Assembly: GCF_000430785.1 (NCBI RefSeq)
Contig: NZ_AUMR01000049.1
Span: forward strand, 1 to 49,148
Length of the DNA stretch: 49,148 nt
Direction of reading: 5' to 3'
Origin: Ectobacillus panaciterrae DSM 19096
GTDB lineage: Bacteria; Bacillota; Bacilli; Bacillales; Bacillaceae_G
Program-made: the position numbers and the translations under genes
Notes under the pieces: model-generated
Told to the model about the DNA's origin: nothing
Database searches by the model: none
Seen by the model: the letters and a program-made list of their open reading frames with translations, nothing else
Shown: positions 2,010-48,241 of the stretch, piece by piece
Layout: each line of letters opens with the position of its first letter
Numbering within the stretch: position 1 is the first letter of the stretch

Positions 2010-2038
2010 AGTTTACATAACATGTCATTATCGGAAGT
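2010..2038 (-). other. dif-like site A
   Basis: On the + strand AGTTTACATAA (2010-2020), a 7-base centre CATGTCA, then TTATCGGAAGT (2028-2038). Read on the minus strand this is a XerC-type arm followed by a XerD-type arm. The XerD-side arm is identical to that of the Bacillus subtilis dif site as I remember it. The centre is one base longer than the usual 6, so recombination competence is uncertain. Confidence 0.55.
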
Positions 2039-2252
2039 TAGATTTTATCAAAAATCCTTTTATACTAAGGATTTCTCTTAATCTCCAATATTATGAAATA
2101 TGCAGGATTTTATACATGCCTGTAATGGTGCGAGTTTGGGATCTCTGGTTATGTACTAGATATGCTAAAAATGCAATATTTTACCGATTGAAATTATCTT
2201 TTAAATTATTATGAATTTGAATCGACATTTTATACAAAATACCTTTACATGC

Positions 2253-2290
2253 AAAAAGAGCCACATTTAATGGCTCTTTTTGTATTTTTT
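2253..2290. terminator. Bidirectional intrinsic terminator
   Basis: AAAAAGAGCCA, a 7-base loop, TGGCTCTTTTT and further T residues; T-rich on both strands. Confidence 0.75.
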
Positions 2291-2470
2291 TTAGCATGTG
2301 ATGGTACCACATGCCCATCAAGCTAGTGAAGGACAAGATGCGGATTGAAGTATAAGTGCACTGCTATGTATCTTCAATTTGTTTGTCCTCCGTCGTTTTC
2401 TACAAAAATGCCCACGCCAAAGAAGCCCCGGATAAGCAATTTTATATTAACTGGCAGCTCCCTCCTGGAT

Positions 2471-2516
2471 CAACAAAAAAGAAGCATCCAGACCCGGTCG
2501 TCTGCGATGCTTCTTT
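2471..2516 (-). terminator. Terminator of the DJ-1-like gene
   Basis: AAAGAAGCATC (2478-2488) pairs with GATGCTTCTTT (2506-2516), with an inner AGAC/GTCT stem. The T run follows on the minus strand, just after the DJ-1-like stop codon. Confidence 0.8.
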
Positions 2517-2527
2517 GGCTTCCCCTT

Positions 2528-3889
2528 TCATGCGGAAACAGTCTTTCTCCTTACGAAACGTCTGTCTGCCAAATAAACGACGACCAGAGACAACAAGCCG
2601 ACACCGATCGGGATGCCGAACGCTTCGTACGAAAATGGTGCTCCTTCAAGCTTAAGCTGGCTTGTGGCGCGGTACTCGAGCCGCTTGGCGGCGAATTTTG
2701 CCGTCCGGATATCTTCCTGCTTCGCCAAATCTTCAAACGCAGGCTCCATTGCGAACCGCTCCGGCGCATCACTGTGCAGGTAAAGCTGCTCAGCCTTTCC
2801 GCCGTTCTCGTTCCAGTTTCGGATATCGCCCGCAGCGCGCGTCTTAACGTCCGGTCCCACAAAAATCATTTTGTCGAGTTTCGGAGCATCTGCTATTTGA
2901 TATCGAGCGATCAGGTTCAGACCGTGCCGGGTAACAACCGGCTCGCGTTTGCTTGATATCGTCAACGTTGTCGTCGTGCCGGAAGCCCCGTACGTGTCAA
3001 AAACCGAGGATAACATCAGCTCGTCGGCCCCGTCATACAGTAGGACCCCGTTCTTTTTTTTGCTCCATTGAAACGCGTTGTTCAAAACATAGACGATATC
3101 GCTCAATCCGGTCGTGAAAGGCTCCATTTGCGGATGCTGAACAAAATCGTAGGAAGGGTAATTCATTTCCTTCGCCACTTTCTCCGCTGTCGGCTCTCCC
3201 ATTTGCCGGGATATGACGTACAGCGTGGCATCGATCCCCGAAGTCAGGCCGGCCGAAGAGACCATGTTGCCGTCAGGTACGTAACGCTGATCCCTTTTCC
3301 AGGTAATCTCGGTATATTTCTTTTCCCATCTTCCGATATTTTTCCAATGCGCTGCCGCAGATTTTCCGTTCAGCAGGCCGGTATCCGCCAAATTTTCCGC
3401 TCCATCGCAGATGGACAACAAGGTCGTTTCCTTGCCGGAGTGTTTCCTTATCCAATCGCGGACAGGCTTGTATTTCGCCTCATCCAAAATCGGCATGTAA
3501 GGGATCACGATTATATCCGGACCTTTGCCCGTCAATTTGTCTAACTCGTCGAAAGTGTAATGTGGTACGACATCAAGGCCGCCTGTTAACGATTTGATGT
3601 TTTTGTCGGGAGCTACCGCAAACACATTGTATGAGCTCGTCATGGAGAACATTTCGTATGGTACGAGAAAATCGAACACCTCGGTCACTTCATTCGCCAA
3701 AATAACGGCCACTGTCGGCTTTTTCGAATCATAGGCAGGAGCTTGAATGCTTTGTAAAGAAACAGGAACCGGCTTATCGTAAACCGACATAGTCTCCTGC
3801 AGCGTGCTCATGAAACCGATCGCTCCGGTTCCTCCCACAAACAGAACGAAAACGCACACATACACGATGAAACGCCATACTTTTTTCAA
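2528..3889 (-). CDS. Membrane-anchored DJ-1/PfpI (class I amidotransferase-like) protein
   Basis: 453 residues from a TTG start preceded by GGGGGAAAAC. An N-terminal hydrophobic segment (about residues 5-28) and a C-terminal one (about 425-443), followed by the basic end RRFVRRKTVSA, suggest anchoring at both ends with the bulk outside the cytoplasm. Residues about 55-230 are a DJ-1/PfpI domain of the GlxA/AraC-linked type: TVAVILANEVTEVFDFLVPY at the start and a nucleophile elbow LLSICDGAENLADTGLLNG, with Cys as the likely reactive residue. There is no helix-turn-helix domain, so it is not a GlxA-type regulator. The function of residues 260-420 is unknown. Its GC content is clearly higher than its neighbours, a sign of transfer. 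Confidence 0.75.
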   Translation of the reverse strand: MKKVWRFIVYVCVFVLFVGGTGAIGFMSTLQETMSVYDKPVPVSLQSIQAPAYDSKKPTVAVILANEVTEVFDFLVPYEMFSMTSSYNVFAVAPDKNIKSLTGGLDVVPHYTFDELDKLTGKGPDIIVIPYMPILDEAKYKPVRDWIRKHSGKETTLLSICDGAENLADTGLLNGKSAAAHWKNIGRWEKKYTEITWKRDQRYVPDGNMVSSAGLTSGIDATLYVISRQMGEPTAEKVAKEMNYPSYDFVQHPQMEPFTTGLSDIVYVLNNAFQWSKKKNGVLLYDGADELMLSSVFDTYGASGTTTTLTISSKREPVVTRHGLNLIARYQIADAPKLDKMIFVGPDVKTRAAGDIRNWNENGGKAEQLYLHSDAPERFAMEPAFEDLAKQEDIRTAKFAAKRLEYRATSQLKLEGAPFSYEAFGIPIGVGLLSLVVVYLADRRFVRRKTVSA

Positions 3890-4023
3890 TTGTTTTCCCC
3901 CATTTATAAATTTATTGGTTTACACAAACGGATTTAGATAATTTCACCAAACTAAACTCATACAAATTTTTTTGATTATCAATTAATCAAAGATATAAAT
4001 ATTTAAAAATACGAAAACTTTAT

Positions 4024-4170
4024 CATTATTTTCCTCCACCTTTTCATTGGATATCGTGGTTTTATCGACTAGGGTTCTGCTTTGTTGGATGATTTCATTG
4101 TACGTCGTTTGATTGCTTCCAAACCCGCAACCTTTTGGGGGATTACCGCAGAATTTTGGAGTACCACCGC
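4024..4170 (-). pseudogene. Decayed copy 1 of a Cys-containing peptide gene and adaptor start
   Basis: About 147 bases matching 8134-8285. On the minus strand it encodes GGTPKFCGNPPKGCGFGSNQ and onward, with two Cys separated by six residues. Compared with copy 2 it has a one-base deletion near its 3' end, which shifts the frame past the normal stop. It retains the GGTGGAGG ribosome binding site and ATG of the following adaptor gene, but the adaptor itself is gone. A 107-codon frame (3983-4306) spans it, but its start lies in a hairpin and it is probably not a real gene. The peptide family is not recognised; a secreted or bacteriocin-like precursor is inference. Confidence 0.55.
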
Positions 4171-4289
4171 CAAATTGAGATAGCGCCATAGAGGCAAGGC
4201 GCTTTAGAGCGTGGCATAAACGGTATTTTTTAGTTGTTATAAAGCAATGAAAAATATTTTTAGCAACCCAAATAGCACAATAAACAGCA

Positions 4290-4333
4290 AAAAAGCTTGG
4301 AGTCATTACATTTTACATTTCCAAGCTTTTTTA
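4290..4333. terminator. Terminator-like hairpin downstream of the response regulator
   Basis: AAAAAGCTTGG (4290-4300) and CCAAGCTTTTTT (4321-4332) with a 20-base loop; T runs on both strands. Confidence 0.55.
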
Positions 4334-4408
4334 TTGCCTAACCTAATTCACTTTTTTATTCCTTCTTCAACTAAAGCGCCCCGAGTTGAAGAATAACAAG
4401 GATTTTTT

Positions 4409-4550
4409 TTAAGTAATTCGTGATACTTTAGTCGAATTTTCATTAGTAACAACTACAAATGATTTGTTCGATGTTATTAACACTTCTTCGATAAAAGAAA
4501 GACCTGGTGCATAAATAAAGCTTCCACCAAGCTTTAATGAGTTTCTCTCC
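4409..4550 (-). other. Unrecognised open fragment, no start codon
   Basis: A frame of about 46 codons, open on the minus strand and ending TAA at 4409-4411, contains GGSFIYAPGLSFIEEVLITS. It has protein-like composition but no start codon and no ribosome binding site. Probably a gene remnant in the gap after the response regulator; family not recognised. Confidence 0.25.
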
Positions 4551-4592
4551 TAAAAGGGGACCCGATAAATTAATTCTGGTCCATTAAAATGG

Positions 4593-5240
4593 CTAATATA
4601 AATCTTCCATTGGCAAAATCCCCAGATTTTTTGCTTTTTTTATCGCTTCCACCCGTGAATTTACTTTTAGTTTTTGAAAAAGTTCTGTCAGACTATATTC
4701 CAATGATCGTTGACTAATCAACAAAGTTTTAGAGATTTCTTTATTGCTAAGTCCCTTTGCCAATTCTCTTAACAGTTTATCCTCTTTTTGAGTAATGGTC
4801 GTTTTTTCATTTGCTTTTTCACTTTCCAAAACAATTTCCTTACGTCTCAATTGTTTAAGGAGCTGCATCGGAACGATAGCTTCTTTCCTAGCTGCGCTGC
4901 GTATAGCCTGGATTACTTGCTCCCTGGTGGATGTTTTTGAAATAAAACCAGAGATACCAGATTCCATCAGCAAATTAAAATGAGGAGCAATTTCAAATCC
5001 TGAATAAATAAGAATGATCGCATCGGGAACAAGGTCAAGGACCTTTCGAGCTAGATCAGCTCCGTTCATATTGGGCATATATAAGTCAAATAGAATCACG
5101 TCAAAATTCTGAAGACGTACCAGATCTGGGACACAATACACGTCCGTCTCAATCGTGACATTCATGTCCTTTTCAGATTCAATTAACAATTTCGTTCCTT
5201 CAACGACCGACCTATGATCATCAACCAATAATATTTCCAT
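4593..5240 (-). CDS. ComA/NarL-type response regulator
   Basis: 215 residues. The N-terminal receiver domain has the acidic pair ILLVDDH (D7, D8) and the likely phospho-acceptor Asp52 in VILFDLYMPNMNG. The C-terminal LuxR/NarL helix-turn-helix spans about residues 150-210, with LLRELAKGLSNKEISKTLLI and the ComA-like RSLEYSLTELFQKLKVNSR. The overall pattern resembles Bacillus ComA. The ATG at 5240 follows AAAGGTG; a GTG at 5249 is in frame. It overlaps the upstream kinase gene by 20 bases, so the two are translationally coupled. Targets are unknown; the flanking peptide/export remnants suggest a peptide-linked locus (inference). Confidence 0.88.
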   Translation of the reverse strand: MEILLVDDHRSVVEGTKLLIESEKDMNVTIETDVYCVPDLVRLQNFDVILFDLYMPNMNGADLARKVLDLVPDAIILIYSGFEIAPHFNLLMESGISGFISKTSTREQVIQAIRSAARKEAIVPMQLLKQLRRKEIVLESEKANEKTTITQKEDKLLRELAKGLSNKEISKTLLISQRSLEYSLTELFQKLKVNSRVEAIKKAKNLGILPMEDLY

Positions 5241-7425
5241 AGTAATCACCTTTTTGTTGTATAGTTGTTGGGATATAAATATCTACCTGAAATCCTTCAT
5301 TAGGAGCTGATGTAATGTCTATTTTTCCATCTAAACTAAGTACCCTATTGGTGATACCTGCAAGACCCATATGTTTAAATGCTCCTTCGAAACTCGATAA
5401 ATCCACTCCGATACCATTATCTTTATACGAATAATGAATTTGTTCTTGATTTCCGCTTAAAACCATTTTTACCTTCGATGCTTTTGAGTGTTTGGTGGCG
5501 TTATTTAACAGTTCTTGAACAATTCGATACATTGCAAGGATTTGATCCTCATTAAGCGGATTTTCCAATTCTAATGCAGAAAATTCAATCTCGTAATTTG
5601 TAAACATCCGAGCGTATGAAAATAAACTTTTTAAAGAATCTACCAGTCCCAACTTTAAGAGAAATGGAGGACGAAGTTCATTACAAGTAATACGAATTTG
5701 ATGAATGGCATCAAGCAATCCTTCCTCAATTTGGATAAGTTCATCTTTTGTTTCCTTATTAAATATTGTGCTGGAGCGTAATGATTCAAGCTTTCGATAC
5801 CAAATAATCAAATCCTGTAAAACAGAATCATGCAAGTCACTGGAAAGTGATGCTCTTTCCTTCTCAGATAGTCGAAATAAAAGCCGTAACATCCATTTAG
5901 GTGTTTCGTTATTCTTGACCATGTCCTCAAGTCTTTTCATCAGATCTTCAATGAAATGAAGATTATCATACAGTATCGAAACATAATGAACGGCGGTGTC
6001 AAGCCATTCCTCTTCCATTTTAACCAAGGTTTGTTCGATCGCCAATTTTAAAAATACCTGCTTTTCCTTGTCGGCAATTTTAATCCATTTCTCATTTTTA
6101 TTTTGGAGAGTTAATTCCTGACCTCTAGGTATTTCTTCAATGGATACACTTTTAATTGGCAATATTTCTTTTACTTCTTCAATCAGGCGTTTTTCCAGTT
6201 CTGTTACTTTCATGACATTAGCAAGGTCGTTAGAGAAACGATTGATACTTTGCTGAAGGGACTTATATCTTTCTTCACTTTTAATTAATTCAAGCTCTTC
6301 TCTTTTTCGTTTCGTAATGTCCTTTACAATACCATGTACTCCATTGAGTTCACCCAAAAGGAAGATCGGAACAAAGGTAATATTGACAATTTTCTCACCT
6401 TGTCCAGAACGTGTAATGCGACATTCGACATCTCTTGGTTCCTTCAATTGCATGACCTCAGATAGGATTTGGTAAACAGGCATGTGATCTTCATCATAAA
6501 TCAAGCCAATAAAACAACGGTCAGGAAGCTGATCCATTTGGATGCCAGTAATCTTTTCAAAGGTTTGATTGGCATTGACAAAATTACCTTTTAAATCAAT
6601 GGAAAATACTCCATCCAAATTATTTTCAAATAAGGACTTATATCTTTGCTCGCTCTCCTCAAGAGCAAGCTCCGACTGTTTTTTTTCTGTAATATCCAAA
6701 ATAATGCCGTCAAGTCGTTCGATAGCACCCATTTTATCCTTATAAGGATGGATGATCATCCTTGCCCATTTTGTTTGATTTTCCATATGGATAAATCGTA
6801 CTACTTCATTAATGGGTAATCCCCTATCCAGCTTTTCCTTTATTTCCCCCATGAGCCTTTCGTTATCATGAGGATGGATATGATCATGTATCCGAATGGG
6901 ATTATACATGATTTCTTCTCTTGGAATCCCGGATATTTGCTCTATGGACTCTGAACAAAATGTATAATGGTGAAAATCGGTGTTTGTGGACATCACAGCT
7001 GCGTTTATGCTGTTTAATATACTTTCAAGCAATTGCTCTGTCTTTTTGCGTTCTGTTATGTCTCTAACTACCGCTACAACATATATAACATTCCCATTGT
7101 CATCAAAAACAGGCTTTACTTTTGTCTCAACATAAATGGTTGAACCCTTTGCATGAATGATTCGATATTCTAAAGCTACAGAAGTTTGGGTCTGAACAAC
7201 TTGGATATGCGATAAGCGGACACGGTCTCTATCCTCCGGATGAATCAGGTCGAATGCATCCATCCCTTCATACTCTTCAATAGTATAACCAGATGTTGAT
7301 TGAAAAGATGGCGATACATATCTCACAATAGCATCATTATCAACCAGAACGATCACATCGGATGTATTCTCAGCAATGATTTTGTACCTTTCCTCTTTAC
7401 TCAACAGATTTTGATTATTTTTCAA
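5221..7425 (-). CDS. Cytoplasmic PAS-PAS-PAS sensor histidine kinase (HisKA_3)
   Basis: 734 residues with no transmembrane segment. Three PAS/PAC units: about 10-130 (YKIIAENTSDVIVLVDNDAI ... VVAVVRDITERK), 130-255 and 260-385 (each ending in a DITEKK or DITKRK-type motif). A coiled region follows, then the HisKA_3 phosphoacceptor helix with LSSDLHDSVLQDL (His near residue 531), and a HATPase domain with the N-box LLNNATKHSKASKV and the G-box DNGIGVDL. The class is NarX/ComP-like, but without the ComP membrane domain, so the signal is probably cytosolic (redox, ligand or protein). It forms an operon with the ComA-like regulator. Confidence 0.9.
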   Translation of the reverse strand: MKNNQNLLSKEERYKIIAENTSDVIVLVDNDAIVRYVSPSFQSTSGYTIEEYEGMDAFDLIHPEDRDRVRLSHIQVVQTQTSVALEYRIIHAKGSTIYVETKVKPVFDDNGNVIYVVAVVRDITERKKTEQLLESILNSINAAVMSTNTDFHHYTFCSESIEQISGIPREEIMYNPIRIHDHIHPHDNERLMGEIKEKLDRGLPINEVVRFIHMENQTKWARMIIHPYKDKMGAIERLDGIILDITEKKQSELALEESEQRYKSLFENNLDGVFSIDLKGNFVNANQTFEKITGIQMDQLPDRCFIGLIYDEDHMPVYQILSEVMQLKEPRDVECRITRSGQGEKIVNITFVPIFLLGELNGVHGIVKDITKRKREELELIKSEERYKSLQQSINRFSNDLANVMKVTELEKRLIEEVKEILPIKSVSIEEIPRGQELTLQNKNEKWIKIADKEKQVFLKLAIEQTLVKMEEEWLDTAVHYVSILYDNLHFIEDLMKRLEDMVKNNETPKWMLRLLFRLSEKERASLSSDLHDSVLQDLIIWYRKLESLRSSTIFNKETKDELIQIEEGLLDAIHQIRITCNELRPPFLLKLGLVDSLKSLFSYARMFTNYEIEFSALELENPLNEDQILAMYRIVQELLNNATKHSKASKVKMVLSGNQEQIHYSYKDNGIGVDLSSFEGAFKHMGLAGITNRVLSLDGKIDITSAPNEGFQVDIYIPTTIQQKGDYYGNIIG

Positions 7426-7635: not shown

Positions 7636-7649
7636 TATTCATACACTAG

Positions 7650-13968: not shown

Positions 13969-14028
13969 GATACAACTTATTTGTAAAAGGTCAAACTTAA
14001 GTAGGAAAGATACATCTTATTTGTCACT
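13969..14028 (+). repeat. 20-bp direct-repeat array 1 (3 units)
   Basis: Units start exactly every 20 bases at 13969, 13989 and 14009. The first is GATACAACTTATTTGTAAAA; the last ends TTGTCACT. Periodicity of two helical turns is typical of iterons or operator arrays. Confidence 0.7.
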
Positions 14029-14203: not shown

Positions 14204-14283
14204 GATACAACTTTATTATGAAAGGTACTACTTAAATATAAACGGTACAACTTATTTATAAAGGGTACAACTTATTTATCACT
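14204..14283 (+). repeat. 20-bp direct-repeat array 2 (4 units)
   Basis: Units start at 14204, 14224, 14244 and 14264. The third is GGTACAACTTATTTATAAAG; the last ends TTATCACT like array 1. Same family as array 1. Confidence 0.75.
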
Positions 14284-14626: not shown

Positions 14627-14654
14627 GGTTAACATAATCAGTGCTATCAGAAGT
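14627..14654 (-). other. dif-like site B
   Basis: GGTTAACATAA, centre TCAGTG (14638-14643), CTATCAGAAGT. Located 96 bp after the phzF-like stop codon. Its centre is identical to that of site C. Confidence 0.6.
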
Positions 14655-14749
14655 TAATATGTCTAAAGCCTATAAAACTTCCCTCCATCTAGCAATCCAG
14701 AAGGGGGCATATTCATATAACTCAGATTATTAGTAGTAAACTATTTTAC

Positions 14750-15619
14750 TTAAATATCAATCCACTTTTCTTTGAATGTAGAAGCAAAGCCTCCCACCTG
14801 AACATTTGCAAAATCACCTGAATGAACAGATACATTTACAGTAATTTCTGAGGAGCTATTCATTGTATATCCTTGCTCAAAAGTAAAGATTCTTTCTTTG
14901 CTTTCTTTCTTGTCATCATATTTTACTAAATAACAAGCTAAAGCCGCATTTGATGTACCAGTAGCACTTTCTTCAGGAATATCATATAAAGGTGCAAAAT
15001 TCCTACAATGAGCTGTGGAATCATATAAAGTTTCTAGTGTAAATACATGATATCCAGTTACATTATATTTTCTACTTATTTCAGTGATTTTTTTCATATC
15101 AGGGTTAACTTCCAATAAGTCAGTAAGGCTTCTTACAGGTACAATGATGTCACGTAAGCCTGTTGACACGATTTGGATGGGCATGTTAGGCATCAACTGG
15201 TCTTCAATTATACGTAATGATTCTATAATTTCCTCAAAAGGTAGGACTTTTAAAAAACTCGGAGGGTTTTGCTGTAAGAAAACCATATGATTTTCGTAAA
15301 TTTGTACATTTAGTACCCCTGCTTTTGTTTCTGTTGTATATATTCCTGGATTTACTATTCCCTTTTGAGTTAGTAAGGAAAAAGTCGCAACCGTCGCATG
15401 CCCACATACATCTACTTCTTCATTCGGTGTAAAATATCTAATTTGATAATCTGAATTTATAGAGGGCAATATAAAAGCAGTCTCTGAAAAACCTAATGTA
15501 CTTGCAATAAATTGCATATCTTTTTCTGTGAGGTCTTTCGTATCTAGAACAACTCCTGCCGGGTTTCCGCCTTCTCCATCTTTAGTAAAGGCAGATAAAA
15601 TGTATACTTTAGTTCTCAA
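14750..15619 (-). CDS. PhzF-family isomerase-like protein
   Basis: 289 residues. Family landmarks are the N-terminal FTKDGEGGNPAGVVLD, GFSETAFILPS, the conserved VDVCGHATVATFSLL, a second half starting near residue 150, and the ATGTSNAALACYLVKY segment. PhzF proteins are two-domain DAP-epimerase-fold enzymes; the acidic residue in GFSETAF is the usual catalytic position. The substrate cannot be told, and no phenazine genes are present. The start chosen is the TTG at 15619, preceded by AGAAGGA; a GTG at 15649 would run into the inverted repeat next to site C. The gene lies alone between dif-like sites B and C. Confidence 0.85.
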   Translation of the reverse strand: MRTKVYILSAFTKDGEGGNPAGVVLDTKDLTEKDMQFIASTLGFSETAFILPSINSDYQIRYFTPNEEVDVCGHATVATFSLLTQKGIVNPGIYTTETKAGVLNVQIYENHMVFLQQNPPSFLKVLPFEEIIESLRIIEDQLMPNMPIQIVSTGLRDIIVPVRSLTDLLEVNPDMKKITEISRKYNVTGYHVFTLETLYDSTAHCRNFAPLYDIPEESATGTSNAALACYLVKYDDKKESKERIFTFEQGYTMNSSSEITVNVSVHSGDFANVQVGGFASTFKEKWIDI

Positions 15620-15646
15620 TACATTTTCCTTCTTTCGTAATTTATA

Positions 15647-15677
15647 CACTGATTATGTCATGTTCACATAATCAGTG
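15647..15677. repeat. 11-bp inverted repeat overlapping dif-like site C
   Basis: CACTGATTATG (15647-15657) and CATAATCAGTG (15667-15677), nine bases apart. The right copy is the XerD-side end plus the centre of site C, so the left copy may be a fragment of another site in opposite orientation. Confidence 0.5.
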
Positions 15678-15688
15678 TTATCGATAGT
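15661..15688 (-). other. dif-like site C
   Basis: TGTTCACATAA, centre TCAGTG (15672-15677), TTATCGATAGT. It lies 96 bp after the stop of the 84-residue membrane protein and just upstream of the phzF-like gene. Confidence 0.65.
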
Positions 15689-15783: not shown

Positions 15784-16038
15784 CTAAACACCCGATTTAA
15801 TCATTAAAAAGAATAATATAACGCCTGCTAATATAATTATTAAAATAAAATATATGTTTATTGTTGATGCAACTACTGCTTTTTTCTGTGTCATCATATT
15901 GTATAAACTATATGCTATGCCTAAAAATAGTAACGAAATTCCAATATGTGGGGTGTATTTTCCTACATCCATCCAAAATATCAAAACAGCTGATACAGGA
16001 AAAATAAAAGGAAGAGCACGTGAAGTAATTTTACTCAT
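15784..16038 (-). CDS. Small three-helix membrane protein
   Basis: 84 residues with three hydrophobic segments: ALPFIFPVSAVLIFWMDV, IGISLLFLGIAYSLYNMM and IYFILIIILAGVILFFLMI. No catalytic motif and no recognised family. The ATG at 16038 has GGAGTG upstream; a GTG three codons earlier was rejected. It stands alone between dif-like sites C and D on the same strand as its neighbours, like a single-gene cassette. Confidence 0.65.
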   Translation of the reverse strand: MSKITSRALPFIFPVSAVLIFWMDVGKYTPHIGISLLFLGIAYSLYNMMTQKKAVVASTINIYFILIIILAGVILFFLMIKSGV

Positions 16039-16111
16039 ATTATTCACTCCATGTTTTTAATTCAAAATCATGTAATCGCCTCCCACTTATCTTAGGTAAG
16101 GAAAGACTTTT

Positions 16112-16211: not shown

Positions 16212-16673
16212 CTATAGAATAAACTTAAAAACATCTATTTCTTGCCCTTTATCATCTGAAATAGTTTCCACAAAACTCCATCCTCTATTTTGATAGTACG
16301 TTGAAGCATTTTCTGTTCTTAAATATAATTCTTTATAACCTAATTCCTTAACAATTTTTAATGTTTCACTTATTAAATTCTGTCCTACACCTTTACTACG
16401 ATGTTCAGATTTTGTATATAAAGAAGCAAGCCAAGGCTTGTATATTTTTCGTTCTTTTAAATCATTTTCAAATATTGATACTGTGCCTATACACTCATTT
16501 TCTTCTATTGCTATTAAAGTAATTGGCAATTGTTTAGAGTGTGTATTTGAAAAGTATGTAAAAACGTCATCAAAAGTCATTTTACTACCTGTATTAACTA
16601 CAAATTCTTTATATATCATATTTGAAACATCATTGATAAAGTCAGCTTGGTTTTCTAATAAATCAATAACCAT
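16212..16673 (-). CDS. GNAT-family N-acetyltransferase
   Basis: 153 residues, one GNAT domain. Acetyl-CoA binding motif A is visible as LYTKSEHRSKGVGQNLISET (R/Q-x-x-G-x-G/A type), preceded by the beta-strand LIAIEENECIGTVSIFEND and followed by ELGYKELYLRTENASTYYQN and RGWSFVE. The acceptor is unknown. A clear AGGGAG precedes the ATG. The start lies 14 bases after the stop of the lipoprotein gene, so both are probably one transcript. Confidence 0.85.
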   Translation of the reverse strand: MVIDLLENQADFINDVSNMIYKEFVVNTGSKMTFDDVFTYFSNTHSKQLPITLIAIEENECIGTVSIFENDLKERKIYKPWLASLYTKSEHRSKGVGQNLISETLKIVKELGYKELYLRTENASTYYQNRGWSFVETISDDKGQEIDVFKFIL

Positions 16674-17303: not shown

Positions 17304-17330
17304 CTTTCACATAAGATTGAGATCGGAATT
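17304..17330 (-). other. Degenerate dif-like site E
   Basis: CTTTCACATAA, a 5-base centre GATTG, then AGATCGGAATT (8 of 11 positions as in the consensus). It abuts a hairpin on the XerD-arm side like sites B, G and J. It lies 199 bp after the DUF1700-like stop codon. Confidence 0.4.
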
Positions 17331-17459
17331 GTAGCGCATGTATGCACGAACTCCTTGCCCGGAAACAAAAAGATCATTCCAAGGGTATAGTCCGCCTGAC
17401 AGTATAGAAGACAGGCATAACCATTGCAATTTCATAAACCTTTTCTGATGGGCCATCAG

Positions 17460-17499
17460 GATACTTACGTTTTGCTTGGGATACTTACGTTTTGTAATT
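17460..17499 (+). repeat. 20-bp direct-repeat array 4 (2 units)
   Basis: GATACTTACGTTTTGCTTGG at 17460-17479 and a second unit at 17480-17499, followed by TTGTCACC as in arrays 1 and 2. Confidence 0.7.
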
Positions 17500-17529
17500 T
17501 GTCACCTCAACCGATGCTTTTTCGTTTCT

Positions 17530-19080: not shown

Positions 19081-19130
19081 TTTATGCAATATATACGTAT
19101 TTATATTAAATTGATGATTTTTGAACACAG

Positions 19131-19210
19131 GGTACTTGCGTTTTGTTTGGGATACCTACGTTTTGTTCAGGATACTTACATTTTGTCTGGGATACTTACG
19201 TTTTGTCTTT
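19131..19210 (+). repeat. 20-bp direct-repeat array 5 (4 units)
   Basis: Units start at 19131, 19151, 19171 and 19191; consensus GATACTTACGTTTTGTYTGG. Same family as array 4 and, inverted, as the copies at 14302-14430. It lies 30 bp beyond the argS stop. Confidence 0.8.
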
Positions 19211-19239
19211 CGTCAATTAAGTAAATAAAGTAAAAAAAC

Positions 19240-20925
19240 TTACATCTCATCCGGGCTTTGTATCCCCAATAAACGTAAACCTTCTTTCAACACCACTGTC
19301 ACTGCATACACAAGTGCCAGTCTGCTTTGTTTTCCTTCATCCTCTTCCAGTATGCGGACATTGCCGTAATACTTATTGAACGCCTGCGCCAAATCCAAAA
19401 TGTATTTTGAAATGTGAGATGGCTCATAACGCTCAAACGCTGTTTCGACCACTTTTGGGAAGCTTTCTAATAGCTTCACGACAGCCCAACTTGTGTCATC
19501 TGCCAGTGCAGCGCTGACGTTATCCGGTGTAAAGTCCGACTTTCTCAAGATTGAGCAAGCACGCGCATGCGTGTACTGCACATACGGTCCTGTCTCTCCT
19601 TCAAACTTTAGCATATGCTCTAAGGAAAACTCGATGTTATGGATACGCTCATTTTTCAAGTCATGGAACAAAATGGCACCCACGCCTACTTGTTTCGCAA
19701 CTTCTTCTTTGTTCGGAAGAGACGGGTTTTTGTCCTCAATATTTTGTTTCGCCAAAGCGATTGCTTCTGCGATGACTTCTTCGAGCAGAACGACTTTTCC
19801 TTTTCTTGTAGACATTTTCTTACCGTCCTTTAAGATTAAGCCGAACGGTACGTGAGACATTCCCTCTACCCAGGAATAACCCATTTTCTTCAGCACTGCG
19901 AATATTTGTTCAAAGTGGAGACTTTGCTCTCCTCCCACAACATACAAAGCGCGGTCAAATTTATACATTCCTTGACGATACATCGCTGCGGTTAAATCAC
20001 GAGTTGCATATAAAGTCGCTCCGTCCGATTTTTTGATCAAACAAGGCGGCATGCCTTCTTCTAATGAAACGACTTTAGCTCCTTCAGACTCCGTAAGCAA
20101 ACCTAAGTTTTCGAGATAGTCTGCCATCTTATCCATTTTATTATTGTAAAATGCTTCGCCGTTAAAGCTGTCGAACTTGACGCCAAGCAGCTCATAAATA
20201 CGTGAAAACTCCTGCAGGGATTCGCTGCGGAACCATGTCCATAGCACAACAGCTTCCTGATCTCCATCTTCCAATCTTTTAAACCATGCGCGTCCTTCGT
20301 CCTCCAATTCCGGATGCTCTTTTACTTCTTCATGAAAATGCACATAGAGGCGAAACAATTCTTTAATCGGATTTTGTTTGACCTTCTCTTCATCGCCCCA
20401 CTTCTTATAGGCAGCAATCAGCTTGCCGAACTGTGTGCCCCAGTCCCCGATGTAGTTGATGCCCACTACTTCATAGCCGCATTTTTCACTGATGCGCTTG
20501 AGAGAATTTCCGATTACAGTAGAACGTAAGTGTCCCATAGAAAACGGCTTTGCGATGTTGGGAGATGAATAATCGATGACAATTGTTTTACCTGTTCCAA
20601 ACTCTTTGTTTCCATATAGTTCTTTCTCTTTAACAATCGTTCCAATCACATCTTTGCTTACATGATGACGGTTTAAAAAGATGTTCACGTACGGGCCGGC
20701 CGCTTCCACTTTCGCAAACAGCGGAGACTGGAGCTGTAAGGCAAGCTCAGATGCAATCTGGACAGGCGCTTTTCGGAACGCTTTCGCTAGTTCAAAGCAA
20801 GGAAAGGCAATATCGCCGTGCTGTTCATGCTTCGGTTTTTCCAGCAGTCTTTCGATTTTTTCTAATGACAGAGCATCTTTTAGCACTTGATATAGTTCTT
20901 TGGCAGCGTCAATTTTATATTTCAT
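19240..20925 (-). CDS. argS: Arginyl-tRNA synthetase
   Basis: 561 residues, full length for bacterial ArgRS. It attaches arginine to tRNA-Arg in the cytoplasm. The N-terminal additional domain (about 1-100) is followed by SSPNIAKPFSMGHLRSTVIG, the class I HIGH-type motif in its ArgRS form. GGEQSLHFEQIFAVLKKMGY and the KMSKS-equivalent GKKMSTRKGKVV come next. The C-terminal DALR anticodon-binding domain includes GPYVQYTHARACSILRK. The ATG at 20925 follows GAGGAGG; a 15-codon extension to 20970 has no site. Expression is controlled by a T-box leader. Confidence 0.96.
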   Translation of the reverse strand: MKYKIDAAKELYQVLKDALSLEKIERLLEKPKHEQHGDIAFPCFELAKAFRKAPVQIASELALQLQSPLFAKVEAAGPYVNIFLNRHHVSKDVIGTIVKEKELYGNKEFGTGKTIVIDYSSPNIAKPFSMGHLRSTVIGNSLKRISEKCGYEVVGINYIGDWGTQFGKLIAAYKKWGDEEKVKQNPIKELFRLYVHFHEEVKEHPELEDEGRAWFKRLEDGDQEAVVLWTWFRSESLQEFSRIYELLGVKFDSFNGEAFYNNKMDKMADYLENLGLLTESEGAKVVSLEEGMPPCLIKKSDGATLYATRDLTAAMYRQGMYKFDRALYVVGGEQSLHFEQIFAVLKKMGYSWVEGMSHVPFGLILKDGKKMSTRKGKVVLLEEVIAEAIALAKQNIEDKNPSLPNKEEVAKQVGVGAILFHDLKNERIHNIEFSLEHMLKFEGETGPYVQYTHARACSILRKSDFTPDNVSAALADDTSWAVVKLLESFPKVVETAFERYEPSHISKYILDLAQAFNKYYGNVRILEEDEGKQSRLALVYAVTVVLKEGLRLLGIQSPDEM

Positions 20926-20943: not shown

Positions 20944-21188
20944 AAAATAAAAAAGCTCGCCTCTAAACAAGAGACGAGCTTTCCCATGGTACCACCCTTT
21001 TGGTTCTTTGAACCTCTTTCCCCTTTGTAACGAGGTTGGGGACCCCCGGCTTGCCCTACTTCGTTTCAGGCAAACGTCTCCGAAGTGCGTTTCATCCGCT
21101 CCGTTGCATCAGGCTCCCACCGTCCCTGACTCGCTGTTGCTTCAGTTGCCGACTACTCTCTTCATCCTAGACTTTTCGAAATTTTCTT
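20944..21188 (-). ncRNA. T-box leader of argS
   Basis: On the minus strand, the T-box core GGTGGTACCATGG (20985-20998 region) is followed by a terminator AAGCTCGTCTC / GAGGCGAGCTTTTTT (about 20952-20981). Upstream is a structured leader of about 190 bases with a GAGTCAGGGACGGTGGGAGC segment typical of T-box stem I 3' regions. Uncharged tRNA-Arg should stabilise the antiterminator and raise argS transcription. I did not assign the specifier codon with certainty. Confidence 0.85.
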
Positions 21189-25792: not shown

Positions 25793-25820
25793 TGTTCACA
25801 TAACCCCGATTATCGGAAAT
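25793..25820 (-). other. dif-like site F
   Basis: TGTTCACATAA, centre CCCCGA, TTATCGGAAAT. 102 bp beyond the stop of the fragment at 25922. Confidence 0.6.
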
Positions 25821-34314: not shown

Positions 34315-34342
34315 TGGTCACATAACACAGATTATCGCAAGT
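34315..34342 (-). other. dif-like site G
   Basis: TGGTCACATAA, centre CACAGA, TTATCGCAAGT. 69 bp after the LysR stop codon and 4 bp before the hairpin. Confidence 0.6.
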
Positions 34343-37145: not shown

Positions 37146-37173
37146 TGTTTATATAATATAATTTATCGGCATT
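37146..37173 (-). other. Possible decayed dif-like site
   Basis: TGTTTATATAA, TATAAT, TTATCGGCATT: same order, spacing and orientation as the other sites, but only about 9 and 8-9 matches per 11-base arm. AT-rich, so chance is possible. 82 bp from site H. Confidence 0.25.
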
Positions 37174-37227
37174 AAATCTATCTATACACTAAAAGCTCCC
37201 CCATATTATTCACTGGAGGAGTTGTCG

Positions 37228-37255
37228 TGTTCACATAACCCAGATTAACGGTAGT
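37228..37255 (-). other. dif-like site H
   Basis: TGTTCACATAA, centre CCCAGA, TTAACGGTAGT. 160 bp after the last gene of the homogentisate operon. Confidence 0.55.
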
Positions 37256-43213: not shown

Positions 43214-43342
43214 ATGAATCAATTGGACATTAGCTTGCTGGAGCCTACAAATAGACGAATGTATGACTGTGAGCAAATTATCAAAGAAATTATGTCATGT
43301 TCACATAATGTAACTCGGAAGTTCTGCCGTTCAAAAAAGTAA
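43214..43342 (+). CDS. Short ORF running through dif-like site I
   Basis: 42 codons: MNQLDISLLEPTNRRMYDCE, then QIIKEIMSCSHNVTRKFCRS and KK. The second half is encoded by the dif-like site and the following hairpin. The first 25 codons look protein-like and may be the 5' end of a gene cut off at the site. The ribosome binding site is weak (AGGGA). Confidence 0.3.
   Translation: MNQLDISLLEPTNRRMYDCEQIIKEIMSCSHNVTRKFCRSKK
43298..43322 (-). other. Shortened dif-like site I
   Basis: TGTTCACATAA, then TGT, then AACTCGGAAGT: both outer arms are recognisable, but about three central bases are missing. Probably inactive. Confidence 0.45.
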
Positions 43343-43357: not shown

Positions 43358-43374
43358 TCAATATACTGGTTTTA

Positions 43375-44408: not shown

Positions 44409-44438
44409 CAAACCCTCCTGCTTCTGCAGGAGGGTTTG
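44409..44438 (-). terminator. Terminator of the BI-1-like gene
   Basis: CAAACCCTCCTGC / GCAGGAGGGTTTG perfect 13-bp stem next to the stop codon, T-rich on both sides. Confidence 0.9.
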
Positions 44439-44442
44439 TTGT

Positions 44443-45174
44443 TTAATCATTTCTCGCAAAATACGAAACAAATCGAAGAATCTCAAGATACAGCCACACC
44501 AGTGTAAGCATTAAGCCGAGCGCACCGTACCATTCCATATACTTCGGCGCACCGGAACGCGCACCGTTTTCGATAAAATCAAAATCGAGCACGAGATTCA
44601 GGGATGCGATCACGATAACTACAGCACTTACAATGATTGCAATCGTTCCGCCGTCATGCAGAAACGGAACCGCTACGCCGAACAATTGAAGTACCGCAAC
44701 CACCAGATACATTAGGACTACGCCTAAAGTAGCAGATAATACGCCCATGCGGAATTTATCAGTCACTTTAATAATGCGCGTTGCATACAACAACAGCATT
44801 GCAAACAAGATGGACACGGTAAGCAGAACAGCTTGCAGTACGACTTGATCACCGAAGCGCTGCATATACATCGCAGAAATCGTGCCTAGCACAATTCCTT
44901 CCACCGCTGCATAAACCGGTGCTGTGACTGGAGAAATCTTCGGCACGAACGTTGTGATGAAAGCGGTGAGCGCTGCGATAATGAGAGCGCCAATCATCAC
45001 AGCTATGTTCATTTTATTTTGCATGACCTGCATGTACGCATAGACTGACGTGCCAAGCAATAAAATCAGCATGATAAACGTTTTACCGACCGTACCGCCG
45101 ACAGTCATCGCAGAAGCGCTTGCCGGCGCTTTGCGGAATGCATCTTCTTTTAACATTGGATTGTTTGTTCTCAT
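44443..45174 (-). CDS. Bax inhibitor-1/YccA-like membrane protein
   Basis: 243 residues, seven hydrophobic segments. After a short cytosolic N-terminus (LKEDAFRKAPASASAMTVGG), helices include FIMLILLLGTSVYAYMQVMQ, IGALIIAALTAFITTFVP and VYAAVEGIVLGTISAMYMQR. Later LVLDFDFIENGARSGAPKYM appears, the conserved D-F-x-x-I-x-x-G segment of this family, and EWYGALGLMLTLVWLYLEIL. Members of the BI-1 superfamily include calcium-leak channels such as YetJ; function here is inferred only. The ATG at 45174 is preceded by AGGAGGTG. Confidence 0.85.
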   Translation of the reverse strand: MRTNNPMLKEDAFRKAPASASAMTVGGTVGKTFIMLILLLGTSVYAYMQVMQNKMNIAVMIGALIIAALTAFITTFVPKISPVTAPVYAAVEGIVLGTISAMYMQRFGDQVVLQAVLLTVSILFAMLLLYATRIIKVTDKFRMGVLSATLGVVLMYLVVAVLQLFGVAVPFLHDGGTIAIIVSAVVIVIASLNLVLDFDFIENGARSGAPKYMEWYGALGLMLTLVWLYLEILRFVSYFARND

Positions 45175-45246
45175 CCAATCCACCTCCTGAAAGGTTATTA
45201 TTACCATTTTAACGGGTTTTTGTCCCTAATTCAATTATATGCGCAT

Positions 45247-47139
45247 TTACGCTTTCAATCCTTCCACAATTTCAGAAAGTTCGCCCCAGCGCTCAATGGC
45301 CTGTTCGAGCGCTTCTTCCGTTTGCTGCTGCTCATCTGTAAGCTTCTGGGCGCGTTCAAAATCAGAACCAACGTTCTCGAGCTCTCCCGCAATTGTCTCC
45401 AGTTTTTCTTCAAGCTCAGCTATTTTTTCTTCAATTGTATCCCACTCGCGCTGTTCATGATAAGAAAGCTTGCGTTTTTTCTGCTTTGGCTGCTCTTCCG
45501 CTTTCTTTTCTTTTACCGTTTCAGCTTTTTGCAGCGCTTCCGTTTGTTTCTTTTCGTCCAAATAGTCCGTGTAGCTGCCGAAGAACACGCGTACATGTCC
45601 GTTTCCGTCAAATATGAACAGCTCTTCCGCTGTTTTATCGAGGAAGTAGCGATCATGCGACACCGTAATGACCACGCCAGGGAAGTCTTCCAAATAATCT
45701 TCAAGCACAGTCAATGTTTGTGTATCTAAATCATTCGTCGGCTCGTCCAACAGCAGTACATTCGGCTCGTCCATTAAAATGCGAAGCAAGTATAACCTTC
45801 TTCTTTCTCCGCCGGACAGCTTGCCGATCGGCGTGCCGTGCGTGCTCGGAGGAAATAGGAATCTCTCCAGCATTTGCGAAGCGCTGATTACTTTCCCATC
45901 CAGCGTATGAATGACCTCTGCGCCCTCTTTGATATATTCAATCATGCGCTGATTCAAGTTCATATCTTCATTTTCTTGCGTGTAGTACGCAACCTTCACT
46001 GTTTGTCCAACCTCAATCTCACCGCTGTCCGGCATGAGTTTGCCAGTCAGCATATTTAACAGTGTGGACTTTCCGCTTCCGTTTGCGCCGATAATACCGA
46101 TTCGGTCGCCAGGCTTCACGATATAGCTGAAATGATCCAGCACGACTTTATCGCCGAATACTTTTGTTACGTCTTTCAGCTCCAGCACCTTTTTGCCGAG
46201 ACGACTGCCGCCAATGGAAATGTCAACCTGCTGTTTCGCTGCCGGTCCTTCTTTTTTATCCAATTCTTCAAAGCGCTGAATACGCGCCTTTTGCTTCGTC
46301 GTACGCGCTTTCGCTCCGCGGCGGATCCATGCAAGCTCGCGGCGGTATAAATTTTGACGTTTCTCTTCCTGTGCAATCTCCATTTCTTCCCGCATCGCTT
46401 TCGCCTCTAGAAAAGCACCGTAGTTTCCTTCATAGCTGTAGAGTTTGCCGTTATCAAGCTCTAAAATGCGGTTTGTCACTCTGTCCAAGAAATAACGATC
46501 ATGCGTTACCAATAGCAAGGAGCCTGTATAGCGCGATAAATATTCCTCCAGCCACTCGACGGTTTCGTGGTCCAAATGGTTCGTCGGCTCATCTAAAATG
46601 AGAAGATCCGGCGTTTGAATAAAGCACTGCGCCATTGCGACGCGCTTTTTTTGCCCGCCCGAGAGCGCTCCTACCTTCGCTGTGAAATCCGTAATCCCCA
46701 ATTTTGTCAACAGCGCTTTTGCGTTTGCGTTCGCTTCCCATGCATTCATCGCATCCATGCGCTGCTGTAATGCGAATAAGGTTTTTTGGATGGATTCATT
46801 TGCCGAATCTTTCTCCAGCTGCAATAAAACCGTTTCATATTCGCGTAGCAAGCGAATGAGCGGTGTGTCGCCGAAGAATACTTGCTCCAACACTGTCAAG
46901 CCTTCATCAAACTGCGGCTGCTGTGACAAATAGCTAATCGTATAACCGCGCGTATGGCTTATTTCGCCAGCATCAGCCTGCTCTAAGCCAGCAATAATTT
47001 TTAACATCGTTGATTTTCCTGTTCCATTGACGCCGATTACACCTACATGCTGTCCTTCTGTAATACTGAAAGTCAAATCTGTAAATAACGGTTTTTCTCC
47101 GTATGATTTTGTTAAGTTTTCTACTTGTAACATTTTCAT
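45247..47139 (-). CDS. yfmR: ABC-F ATPase, Uup/YfmR type
   Basis: 630 residues, two ABC domains and no membrane part. Walker A GVNGTGKST and GANGSGKST; signatures LSGGQKKR and LSGGERRR; Walker B LLILDEPTNHLD and LLLDEPTNDLD. The linker between domains carries the charged ABC-F P-site tRNA interaction region (RRGAKARTTKQKARIQRFEE). The C-terminal coiled coil (about 545-630) is that of Uup/YfmR proteins, which relieve stalled ribosomes. The ATG overlaps the ypgQ stop (ATGA), so the genes are coupled. Confidence 0.9.
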   Translation of the reverse strand: MKMLQVENLTKSYGEKPLFTDLTFSITEGQHVGVIGVNGTGKSTMLKIIAGLEQADAGEISHTRGYTISYLSQQPQFDEGLTVLEQVFFGDTPLIRLLREYETVLLQLEKDSANESIQKTLFALQQRMDAMNAWEANANAKALLTKLGITDFTAKVGALSGGQKKRVAMAQCFIQTPDLLILDEPTNHLDHETVEWLEEYLSRYTGSLLLVTHDRYFLDRVTNRILELDNGKLYSYEGNYGAFLEAKAMREEMEIAQEEKRQNLYRRELAWIRRGAKARTTKQKARIQRFEELDKKEGPAAKQQVDISIGGSRLGKKVLELKDVTKVFGDKVVLDHFSYIVKPGDRIGIIGANGSGKSTLLNMLTGKLMPDSGEIEVGQTVKVAYYTQENEDMNLNQRMIEYIKEGAEVIHTLDGKVISASQMLERFLFPPSTHGTPIGKLSGGERRRLYLLRILMDEPNVLLLDEPTNDLDTQTLTVLEDYLEDFPGVVITVSHDRYFLDKTAEELFIFDGNGHVRVFFGSYTDYLDEKKQTEALQKAETVKEKKAEEQPKQKKRKLSYHEQREWDTIEEKIAELEEKLETIAGELENVGSDFERAQKLTDEQQQTEEALEQAIERWGELSEIVEGLKA

Positions 47140-47777
47140 GCTTTGGCATTCCACTCTTTCATAAATTGTTGAATGAATTCTTCCATATAAGCATGGCGTT
47201 CTCCTGCCATGTGCTTTGCCGTTTCTGTGTTCATTAAATCTTTCAGCTTTAACAGCTTTTCATAAAAATGATTTAAGGAAGGGTCATTCGCGCGGCGGTA
47301 TTGCTCCTTCGTCATAGATTCGCGCGGCGGAATATTTGGATCGTACATCAAACGTCCCTTGGCGCCTCCGTATGCAAAAGTACGCGCTATACCAATTGCT
47401 CCGATAGCATCCAAACGGTCTGCATCCTGTACAATCTTTCCCTCTAGCGTCTCCACATTGCCGCCGTGCCCGCCTTTAAAGGACATGTTCATAATGATAT
47501 GGAGGATATGACGAACGTCGTCTTCTTTTACCGCAAGCTTTATAAGCCAGTCCTGTACGCGTTTCAGTCCCGCCTCTTCGCTTTCGTTGAGCTTTTCATC
47601 CGCTACATCATGCAAAAGCGCTGCCATCTCAATGATAAAACGGTCGCCGCCTTCTTTTTCACTGATTGCGATTGCTAATTTATGTACGCGTTCAATATGA
47701 TACCAGTCGTGTCCGCTGGCATCGTTTCCTAAAAAATCTTTTACAAAAATAATGGTTTTTTCAATATTTGTTTTCAT
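47136..47777 (-). CDS. ypgQ: HD-domain phosphohydrolase, YpgQ/YedJ-like
   Basis: 213 residues. HD ligands: GHDWYHIERVHKLAIAIS, then MAALLHDVADEKLNE (H-D) and the distal Asp in EGKIVQDADRLDAIGAIGIA. The GIARTFAYGGAKGRLMYDPN segment is typical for the YpgQ/YedJ group, which acts on nucleoside triphosphates. The ATG at 47777 is preferred over a GTG three codons earlier. First gene of a pair with yfmR. Confidence 0.88.
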   Translation of the reverse strand: MKTNIEKTIIFVKDFLGNDASGHDWYHIERVHKLAIAISEKEGGDRFIIEMAALLHDVADEKLNESEEAGLKRVQDWLIKLAVKEDDVRHILHIIMNMSFKGGHGGNVETLEGKIVQDADRLDAIGAIGIARTFAYGGAKGRLMYDPNIPPRESMTKEQYRRANDPSLNHFYEKLLKLKDLMNTETAKHMAGERHAYMEEFIQQFMKEWNAKA

Positions 47778-47983
47778 ATTCTTCACCCAGTTTCTTATTG
47801 TACCATGAACCGTATCGCCATCACATCTTTTCTGGTCTGCCTGTATATATTGAAGAGTAGCAAGTGCCGCTCCTTATCATACTTTTGTGTGAGAAAAGCT
47901 GCTACCGGCGGCGGATGCCGGCACTCTACAAATCCTATACACTAACAGTAAGAGAAAATCACGAACGATAAAGGAGAATCCAT

Positions 47984-48144
47984 ATGCCACATTATATTTG
48001 CACCGCATGCGGTGTTCAATATTCAAAAAGCGCACATACACCTGCTCATTGTACAATTTGCAGCGAAGAACGACAGTATGTTAATCCTAATGGTCAAGCA
48101 TGAACGACGTTAGAAGAAATGAGACAAAGTCAAGTGTTCAAAAA
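47984..48144 (+). pseudogene. N-terminal remnant of an MBL-fold hydrolase
   Basis: After a good AAAGGAG site the ATG opens MPHYICTACGVQYSKSAHTP, then HCTICSEERQYVNPNGQA and TGA. Reading through, TTLEEMRQS continues in frame. The family normally has a Trp (TGG) at the TGA position, so a point mutation made a stop. The paired Cys (CTAC, CTIC) form the zinc-ribbon start seen in some Bacillus metallo-beta-lactamase-fold proteins. The hydrolase domain itself is absent. Confidence 0.65.
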
Positions 48145-48190
48145 CGACATAAGTGTTCAAAATTATAGTTTTTGCTAAGACAAACAAAAA

Positions 48191-48214
48191 AAGCCTGTTC
48201 AATTTAACAGGCTT
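48191..48214 (-). terminator. Terminator beyond dif-like site J
   Basis: AAGCCTGTT / AACAGGCTT, followed on the minus strand by seven T. It ends exactly where the XerD-side arm of site J begins and serves the SPW gene. Confidence 0.75.
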
Positions 48215-48241
48215 CTTAACATAATCCAGATTATCAGTAAT
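48214..48241 (-). other. dif-like site J
   Basis: TCTTAACATAA, centre TCCAGA, TTATCAGTAAT. 51 bp after the SPW-protein stop codon. Confidence 0.5.

Follow-up and report, generated by a model that had tools for sequence, protein, structure and literature searches.

The window analysed here, a stretch of 49,148 nucleotides (nt) from Ectobacillus panaciterrae DSM 19096, is the entire contig C35 of a 5.41-Mb draft genome in 189 contigs, and it carries ten dif-like sites, all on the minus strand. We consider it likely that these are secondary XerC/XerD (CodV/RipX) recombination sites bounding gene cassettes in integron-like arrays. Each site would consist of a CodV/XerC-type arm (ACTTCCGATAA-like), a centre of 6 or 7 nt and a RipX/XerD-type arm (TTATGTNAACT-like), and a cassette would extend from the right half of one site through the left half of the next, often holding one short accessory gene or a lone terminator-like hairpin. 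Recombination between two sites would swap half-sites within the centre, and cassettes would travel, alone or several together, from array to array and among chromosomes and plasmids. As intermediates of this transfer, which probably still continues, we infer circles or cointegrates. An earlier note on this DNA had suggested Xer-mobilised gene modules; segments bounded at the cores, and arms that match the Xer arms of the probable dif of the same genome, bear this out. Genomes, contigs and loci are referred to below by G, C and L codes, G000 being the window's own genome.

Dif-like sites in the window and its genome

The number, orientation and gene arrangement of the sites are direct observations. 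A two-arm matrix (11-nt arm, 6- or 7-nt centre, 11-nt arm), with a training set drawn partly from the sites of G000 itself, yielded 10 window sites at 13 bits or more, against a total of 2 matches over 40 dinucleotide shuffles of the window at the same threshold. An untrained plain pattern allowing up to three mismatches recovered 6 window sites and none in 100 shuffles. The earlier note had listed ten sites, eight of which stand (2010, 14627, 15661, 16112, 25793, 34315, 37228 and 48214). The position at 17304 scores 0.8 bits and is rejected, and that at 43298 has a right arm of 16.1 bits and fits best with a 3-nt centre and a left arm of -0.5 bits, making it at most a decayed half-site. The list was also incomplete, with further real sites at 14710 and 37146. 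The uniform orientation that it described is true of all ten real sites. Its remark that ten sites in 49 kb is abnormal understates the case in view of the whole genome. There, the six-nt pattern with up to three mismatches has 142 matches, 66 on the plus and 76 on the minus strand, and the seven-nt pattern 81, with 33 on the plus and 48 on the minus strand; the reversed controls gave 1 and 0. The two lists may overlap. Many of these matches sit on small contigs, some hundreds of bases apart, in keeping with repeats having broken the assembly.

A chromosomal dif occurs once, close to the terminus, and has a conserved centre; the numerous matches in G000, with their variable centres, do not have that character. 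The genome-wide search and the comparison with the real dif that the earlier note had proposed instead place the probable true dif elsewhere, at C19:46245-46271 (centre TATATA), where the alignment to the dif regions of several other genomes continues into the flanks, past the core. The array sites combine the same arms as this probable dif with other centres.

Array anatomy was examined in 43 loci at 13 bits or more, with genes predicted by a rough caller of our own. The first scan gave 247 sites, against 0 in the reversed sequence, and 249 when centres of 5-8 nt were allowed; 248 of the 249 are intergenic. Consecutive sites less than 5 kb apart share the same orientation in 86/91 cases in G000, 230/244 in Priestia and 20/25 in G002, and the arrays are one-way successions of gene plus recombination site, the arrangement by which an integron is judged. 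At six-nt sites of G000, the left-hand gene lies on the same strand in 56 of the 76 with a left neighbour (median 58.5 bp), 13 of these 56 sites being within 10 bp of the gene end and 34 within 100 bp. The right-hand gene lacks a strand bias in Priestia (47 same strand, 46 opposite); at the seven-nt sites of G000, which show an extended consensus, it is on the same strand in 25 cases versus 6 opposite.

A gene-less module of 86-88 bp, often situated between a six-nt site and the next seven-nt site, contains a terminator-like hairpin, with z values of -3.2, -4.5 and -5.2 for three copies on other contigs and -0.7 and -3.2 for the two window copies. In the G000 loci, 21 of 22 six-then-seven intervals are without a gene, 19 of 23 seven-then-six intervals hold one or two genes, and 16 of 37 six-then-six intervals hold none. 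Single-gene modules encode short proteins (median open reading frame (ORF) of 155 aa in 34 modules), and eight of ten G000 cassette proteins have Pfam matches: GNAT (three), FMN reductase, SnoaL-like, MerR/TipAS, DUF4259 and an immunity protein. The array regions of Priestia plasmids encode GNAT, NUDIX, DinB, GrpB, SDR, DUF1697 and VOC proteins among others, in a list compiled by eye that may extend to genes outside site-bounded segments.

Core-bounded segments and half-site exchange

Shared segments that end at the cores are observed directly in three settings. Alignments of at least 300 bp and at least 85% identity were compared with 2000 shifts, an endpoint being assigned to a core when no more than 5 bp away; sites of at least 13 bits were used for the chromosomal endpoints and for orientation in G000 and G002, and of at least 12 bits for plasmid loci. 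Endpoints at cores numbered 21/115 in 11 plasmid loci (null mean 0.81, maximum 5), 10/44 in the loci of G370 and G313 (0.50, maximum 5) and 9/33 in those of G000 (0.62, maximum 5). Individual cases illustrate the pattern. A 1413-bp segment of G000, 88% identical, stands in two different surroundings (L031:15370-16782 and L044:1889-478), each time ending in a core on either side. G370 and G313 share four blocks of 1.1 to 3.8 kb (87-97% identity) whose ends fall in cores or at most 20 bp away, along with many other alignments that end off the cores. The pBM700 block L298:27986-29865, which encodes a histidine phosphatase, GrpB and NUDIX proteins, recurs in KF18 unnamed4 at 98% identity over 1880 bp, again with both ends in cores, and an SDR cassette common to pBM700 and pMLY91_1 has one end in a core, while its opposite end lies outside by 2 bp in pMLY91_1 and by 36 bp in pBM700. 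Segments present or absent with boundaries at the centres, which the earlier note had proposed to look for, thus exist in complete plasmids of Priestia, between a pair of Priestia genomes and within G000, and modules are gained and lost at the sites in the manner of dif modules. The window itself contributes one end of the 16112 cassette. Its GNAT gene recurs in contig C148, the two copies being shared through the left arm and CAC and then diverging as CAC/ACA versus CAC/TGA; the other end of this segment is at no recognised window site.

The exchange of half-sites, likewise observed directly, was followed in 331 Priestia sites with six-nt centres (67 loci scanned, 64 with sites; 9 near-duplicates removed from 340). 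In a first comparison with 40-bp flanks, many same-left pairs shared just the terminator-like element, and a later pair set was relied on. In its 32 same-left-only pairs, the left arm lies far above background (position 2: 0.88 vs 0.32) and centre positions 1-3 are raised (0.47, 0.56 and 0.59 vs 0.27, 0.30 and 0.33), whereas positions 4-6 are at background (0.28, 0.34 and 0.44 vs 0.28, 0.34 and 0.42), as is largely the right arm. In the 25 same-right-only pairs it is the right arm that is raised, together with centre positions 4-6 (0.48, 0.56 and 0.88), and the left arm stays at background. The arm beside the shared flank is therefore co-inherited while the other is at background, which implies crossovers inside the six-nt centre. 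The same-left set points to a crossover at the middle of the centre, a position that the same-right set does not resolve.

Crossovers inside the centre in turn indicate an Xer-type strand exchange rather than a plain 3' untranslated region (3'-UTR) element, the alternative named in the earlier note. A repeated 3'-end or regulatory element, terminator-associated or an operator, that merely resembles dif would account for sites that are intergenic, that often lie close behind same-strand genes in G000 and that in some cases stand beside terminator-like hairpins; but half-site exchange inside the centre and core-bounded segments are unexpected for a transcribed element, the former contradicting it, and the right-hand genes of Priestia show no strand preference, so that we regard this explanation as very improbable. 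RecA-type recombination between short repeats, as the maker of the mosaics, seems to us just as improbable. The gene-less mini-modules are alike at many places (flank comparison of sites with at most four mismatches, 112/131 places), and homologous exchange could therefore give some of the shared flanks; the breakpoints, however, fall in a six-nt centre between arms that are often non-identical, the endpoints cluster in the cores, and 28 bp is short for homologous exchange.

The centres of the 331 Priestia sites have an internal structure. Positions 4-6 co-vary strongly (0.37-0.40 bits) and are occupied by few trimers (GTT 66, ACA 61, TGA 36, TCA 22, ATT 21); positions 1-3 co-vary weakly, at about 0.04, and the two halves by 0.05-0.14. 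Pairs with identical centres are in excess, 85 against a null of 7.4 in Priestia and 620 against 44 in G000, relative to a null that ignores shared ancestry and co-variation.

Hosts, candidate enzymes and neighbouring features

A broader pattern (up to two mismatches) matched 331 of 397 genomes of the order, mostly 1-3 times, the usual match being the true dif among the places listed. Seven genomes have at least 16 matches: G000 (151), G313 (93), G351 (70), G370 (51), G293 (50), G180 (22) and G205 (16). In a survey of 398 genomes of the class, which has some genomes in common with the former, three reach this number, namely G000, G605 (28) and G523 (18). G313 is Priestia endophytica DSM 13796, with which a site matches; G351 is taken as P. 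megaterium KF18 or a twin (KF18-like), and the group of G605 and G523 may be Planococcaceae-like. Twelve loci of the latter group yielded 59 sites, the true dif included, against 0 in the control; the right arm in its arrays is usually ATATGTAAAC. Array sites occur both on chromosomes (G523 C1, G351 C1) and on plasmids. With a mini-module as the query, matches came from 10 plasmid records, of Priestia, Bacillus arachidis, Peribacillus and Cytobacillus, and 157 plasmid records (153 of them Priestia) have parts in common with a 24-kb stretch of pBM700 in which the array lies. At L298:19381-19408 of pBM700 and in four plasmids with a fabF/HTH backbone (L299-L301 and L303), one centre and right half is combined with three left halves, an arrangement that resembles a fixed array end.

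The mini-module has no match among 50,697 phage records, and the commonest core (23 specified bases) has no exact match in viral contigs; on these two tests, origin from a phage or an integrative mobile element exploiting Xer (IMEX) was rejected. On contig C1 of G523 (L355-L360, L367), with its dif at 1.53 Mb, 17/17 sites in the loci on the left are minus and 8/8 in those on the right are plus, a switch of array polarity at dif. Array polarity set by replication is not general, because the listed sites of the KF18-like chromosome switch sign within 1.81-1.87 Mb.

Three records met in the surveys stand apart. On contig C2 of G495 (630-43796), two dif-like sites recur about every 11.4 kb through 43 kb, as though the assembly had strung together several head-to-tail copies of a small plasmid, or the plasmid existed as a multimer. 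In the order survey, G029 gave 8 and 7 matches in the reversed control against 1 and 1 with the real pattern, perhaps through an unrelated repeat family. A plasmid record under the name Klebsiella grimontii (CP079755.1) has matches both to a region for a small acid-soluble spore protein of Bacillus type and to an integrase of the C141-like family described below, and looks mislabelled or contaminated.

Presumed XerC and XerD are represented by at least two matching proteins of ~300 aa in 19/19 genomes, with or without arrays. At B. subtilis dif, according to PMC5357621, CodV binds the left half-site and RipX prefers the right. The cut-off of the integron integrase model (TIGR02249) is exceeded in 0/8 array genomes, the best match reaching 100 of 265 bits, and no recombinase type other than the presumed XerC/XerD was found to be common to all array lineages. 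The housekeeping XerC/XerD pair would be the enzymes of the arrays.

A dedicated tyrosine recombinase that uses dif-like sites, for example of the 392-aa, plasmid-type C141-like family, could move the cassettes instead, though we think this unlikely. G000 has 20 PF00589 matches, and the array sites have features foreign to a true dif, namely seven-nt centres and a palindrome at +5 bp. C141-like recombinases of ~392 aa occur in G000, G002 (55% identity), a B. arachidis plasmid (51%), and twice each in G351 and G293 (36-38%); in L297 one such gene precedes the first array site by 2.3 kb, and in L372 another follows a site at ~0.9 kb. In the 1.57 Mb of array loci, four ORFs resemble reference tyrosine recombinases, two of them C141 relatives (B. 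arachidis plasmid, G293) and two a Tn554-like pair in one locus. Against such an enzyme, the 5-kb loci L369 and L370 hold a C141-like gene but no site, and no C141-like protein was present among the candidate ORFs fetched from G313 (1), G370 (3), G523 (1) and G605 (3), which belong to 18 chosen places, a subset of the weak matches. The family is moreover widespread on plasmids of Bacilli, with 101 records (104 places, nearly always once per record), 53 of them Priestia and others B. subtilis and B. velezensis, and it falls far under the cut-offs of the XerA, XerC and XerD models. It would look like a plasmid-maintenance recombinase, and is a possible array enzyme in part of the lineages; as a general array enzyme it was set aside on account of its distribution and is kept as a rival. 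The other candidate, C95, is present in G000, G002 and the array-poor G004, is split in G010, and was rejected for the Priestia family, where 0/8 genomes checked carry it. A tyrosine recombinase pair lies between array sites at L035:2148-5538 (contig C62); we take it to be Tn554-like.

A palindrome, TGTATA-N3-TATACA, counted at 10 or more of its 12 letters, begins exactly 5 bp past the right arm at 30/34 seven-nt sites in G000 and 13/15 in G002, and at 9/83 six-nt sites in G000 and 135/331 Priestia sites, against a background of 4/16,550 random positions. It is absent from all 37 true difs (0/37), and its being part of an ordinary dif is rejected. Its role as a promoter of the cassette gene is unsupported in Priestia, where the next right-hand gene is equally often on either strand; at the seven-nt sites of G000, with their excess of same-strand genes, it may serve as one. 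The fixed register across lineages suggests a putative accessory binding site.

Several observations weigh against the reading of the arrays as XerC/XerD-driven cassettes. Most plasmid segment endpoints (94/115) lie away from cores, as transposons and decay would produce. In the same-right pairs, centre positions 1-3 are raised too (0.48, 0.56 and 0.44), which makes the crossover point less sharp, and the pairs, built from 51 and 46 distinct sites, are non-independent. In the Planococcaceae-like arrays the right arm has ATATGT where the group's own dif has TTATGT, a difference beside the centre. C141-like recombinases occur in 4/8 array genomes, in two places ~1 to 2.3 kb from an array site. 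Neighbours with the same centre are rare (2/37 six-nt pairs in G000, 6/230 in Priestia), so that, should recombination require identical centres, cassettes would seldom be simply excised one at a time. In Acinetobacter, recombination needs closely related centres (PMC11705084, PMC13141974); if this rule holds here, exchange would take place mostly between distant sites or replicons, and the arrays would be fairly stable.

We offer a more specific scheme tentatively, as a possibility on the doubtful side. The arrays, of superintegron size and found in Bacillota, would be a third cassette system that has no integrase of its own, in which the housekeeping CodV/RipX act through an extended site of core and fixed-register palindrome, the centre consists of two separately inherited trimers, and the XerD-side trimer is a class code. 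Under this scheme, mid-centre junctions imply that the Holliday junction is resolved at the branch point and not by a second Xer exchange; the resolver would be a host resolvase or replication.

Table 1. Sites, modules and genes of the window, and places of the C141-like family
Feature	Position	Strand	Score or evidence
Dif-like site, 7-nt centre TGACATG	2010..2038	-	36.5 bits
Palindrome TGTATA-N3-TATACA, beginning 5 bp past right arm of 2010 site	1990..2004	-	sequence
Dif-like site, centre CACTGA	14627..14654	-	26.7 bits
Intervening segment of gene-less mini-module between two sites; possible hairpin, non-significant	14655..14709	-	14655-14712 fold -14.1 kcal/mol, z -0.74
Dif-like site, centre TCTGAG, absent from earlier note	14710..14737	-	17.3 bits
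PhzF-like gene between two sites	14750..15649	-	PF02567 2.1e-60
Dif-like site, centre CACTGA	15661..15688	-	28.8 bits
87-aa ORF between two sites, without Pfam match; in ORF list, dropped by rough gene caller	15784..16047	-	
Dif-like site, centre CACACA; same gene end joined to other right half in contig C148	16112..16139	-	36.1 bits
GNAT acetyltransferase gene of 16112 cassette	16212..16673	-	PF00583 2.2e-10; 94% identical segment in L050
Dif-like site, centre TCGGGG	25793..25820	-	31.6 bits
Dif-like site, centre TCTGTG	34315..34342	-	24.6 bits
Dif-like site, centre ATTATA, absent from earlier note	37146..37173	-	24.0 bits
Hairpin segment of gene-less mini-module	37174..37227	-	37174-37230 fold -16 kcal/mol, z -3.21
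Dif-like site, centre TCTGGG	37228..37255	-	27.7 bits
Dif-like site, centre TCTGGA	48214..48241	-	22.5 bits
C141-like family places	L057, L297:13939-15120, L331:8844-10040, L369, L370, L372, L385		

The window also contains other features. A T-box leader (RF00230, 95.2 bits) at 20967-21177 (minus) lies upstream of the minus-strand ORF 19240-20925, presumably an arginyl-tRNA synthetase gene. Tandem units of ~20 bp (GGATACTTACGTTTTG-like) at 17456-17504 and 19127-19215, 1.7 kb apart, flank a PadR/HAAS gene pair, and a second ~20-bp repeat family (GATACAACTTATTT-like) forms two clusters at 13969-14022 and 14204-14277. A 113-nt direct repeat of 81% identity, its copies 137 nt apart (1299-1411 and 1436-1548), overlaps the start of a DUF1801/OmdA gene.

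Relation to known cassette systems

Chromosomal integrons (superintegrons) are long one-way arrays of single-gene cassettes, each with a recombination site and often encoding small accessory enzymes. The arrays described here are like them in their one-way order, in the pairing of gene and site and in their small accessory enzymes, and unlike integrons in having no integrase above the cut-off in eight array genomes and 28-bp dif-like sites instead of attC. In three reports on Acinetobacter, pdif sites consist of a XerC arm, a 6-nt spacer and a XerD arm and bound modules of accessory genes on mosaic plasmids; the modules alternate between C/D and D/C, so that neighbouring sites are inverted, and non-cointegrate r3-T5 plasmids carry up to seven modules (PMC13141974, PMC11705084, PMC12907356). 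The analogy with pdif drawn in the earlier note applies to the layout of the sites, with variable spacers, accessory modules between sites and mosaic plasmids, and to the gain and loss of modules at them. It fails for their orientation: neighbours here are direct repeats in long arrays and not alternating inverted ones (86/91 and 230/244 in the same orientation). The arrays also differ in being much larger, in occupying chromosomes as well as plasmids, in having 6- and 7-nt classes (G000) and terminator-only mini-modules, and in the fixed-register palindrome. They are found in G000 (which shares its order in GTDB with Priestia), in P. endophytica, and on plasmids of Priestia, Peribacillus, Cytobacillus and Bacillus, a difference in host from the Rep_3/OrfX plasmids of Acinetobacter.

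The general Xer literature offers two further comparisons, both drawn from one article (PMC5357621). The B. subtilis dif, two 11-bp half-sites around a 6-bp centre recognised by CodV/RipX, shares the half-site layout and arms of the same kind, but is single and near the terminus, whereas array sites are many and dispersed, with variable centres. The cer and psi sites join ~180 bp of accessory sequences, acting with PepA and ArgR in dimer resolution, to an Xer core; the array sites likewise adjoin an accessory sequence, here a 15-bp palindrome, and are many per replicon. The part of the open-licence literature covered, which turned up Acinetobacter and general Xer work and has most subscription papers and preprints outside its scope, contained no report of Bacillales arrays of this sort. 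In kind, the arrays belong with Xer-site gene modules, as a variant of them; their scale and direct repeats recall a superintegron that lacks an integron integrase.

Integrons are regarded as the main natural platform for gene cassettes, and dif modules have been described from Acinetobacter plasmids (PMC13141974). If the reading of the arrays as XerC/XerD-driven cassettes is true, soil Bacilli, including the industrial Priestia megaterium, would own a large integrase-free cassette platform, overlooked by integrase-based searches. Such a platform would go some way towards accounting for the mosaic of small enzymes that these genomes and plasmids encode. The reading would also open to experiment the degree of mismatch between centres that Xer recombination accepts, and the reason why the resolution of chromosome dimers goes undisturbed by hundreds of Xer sites.

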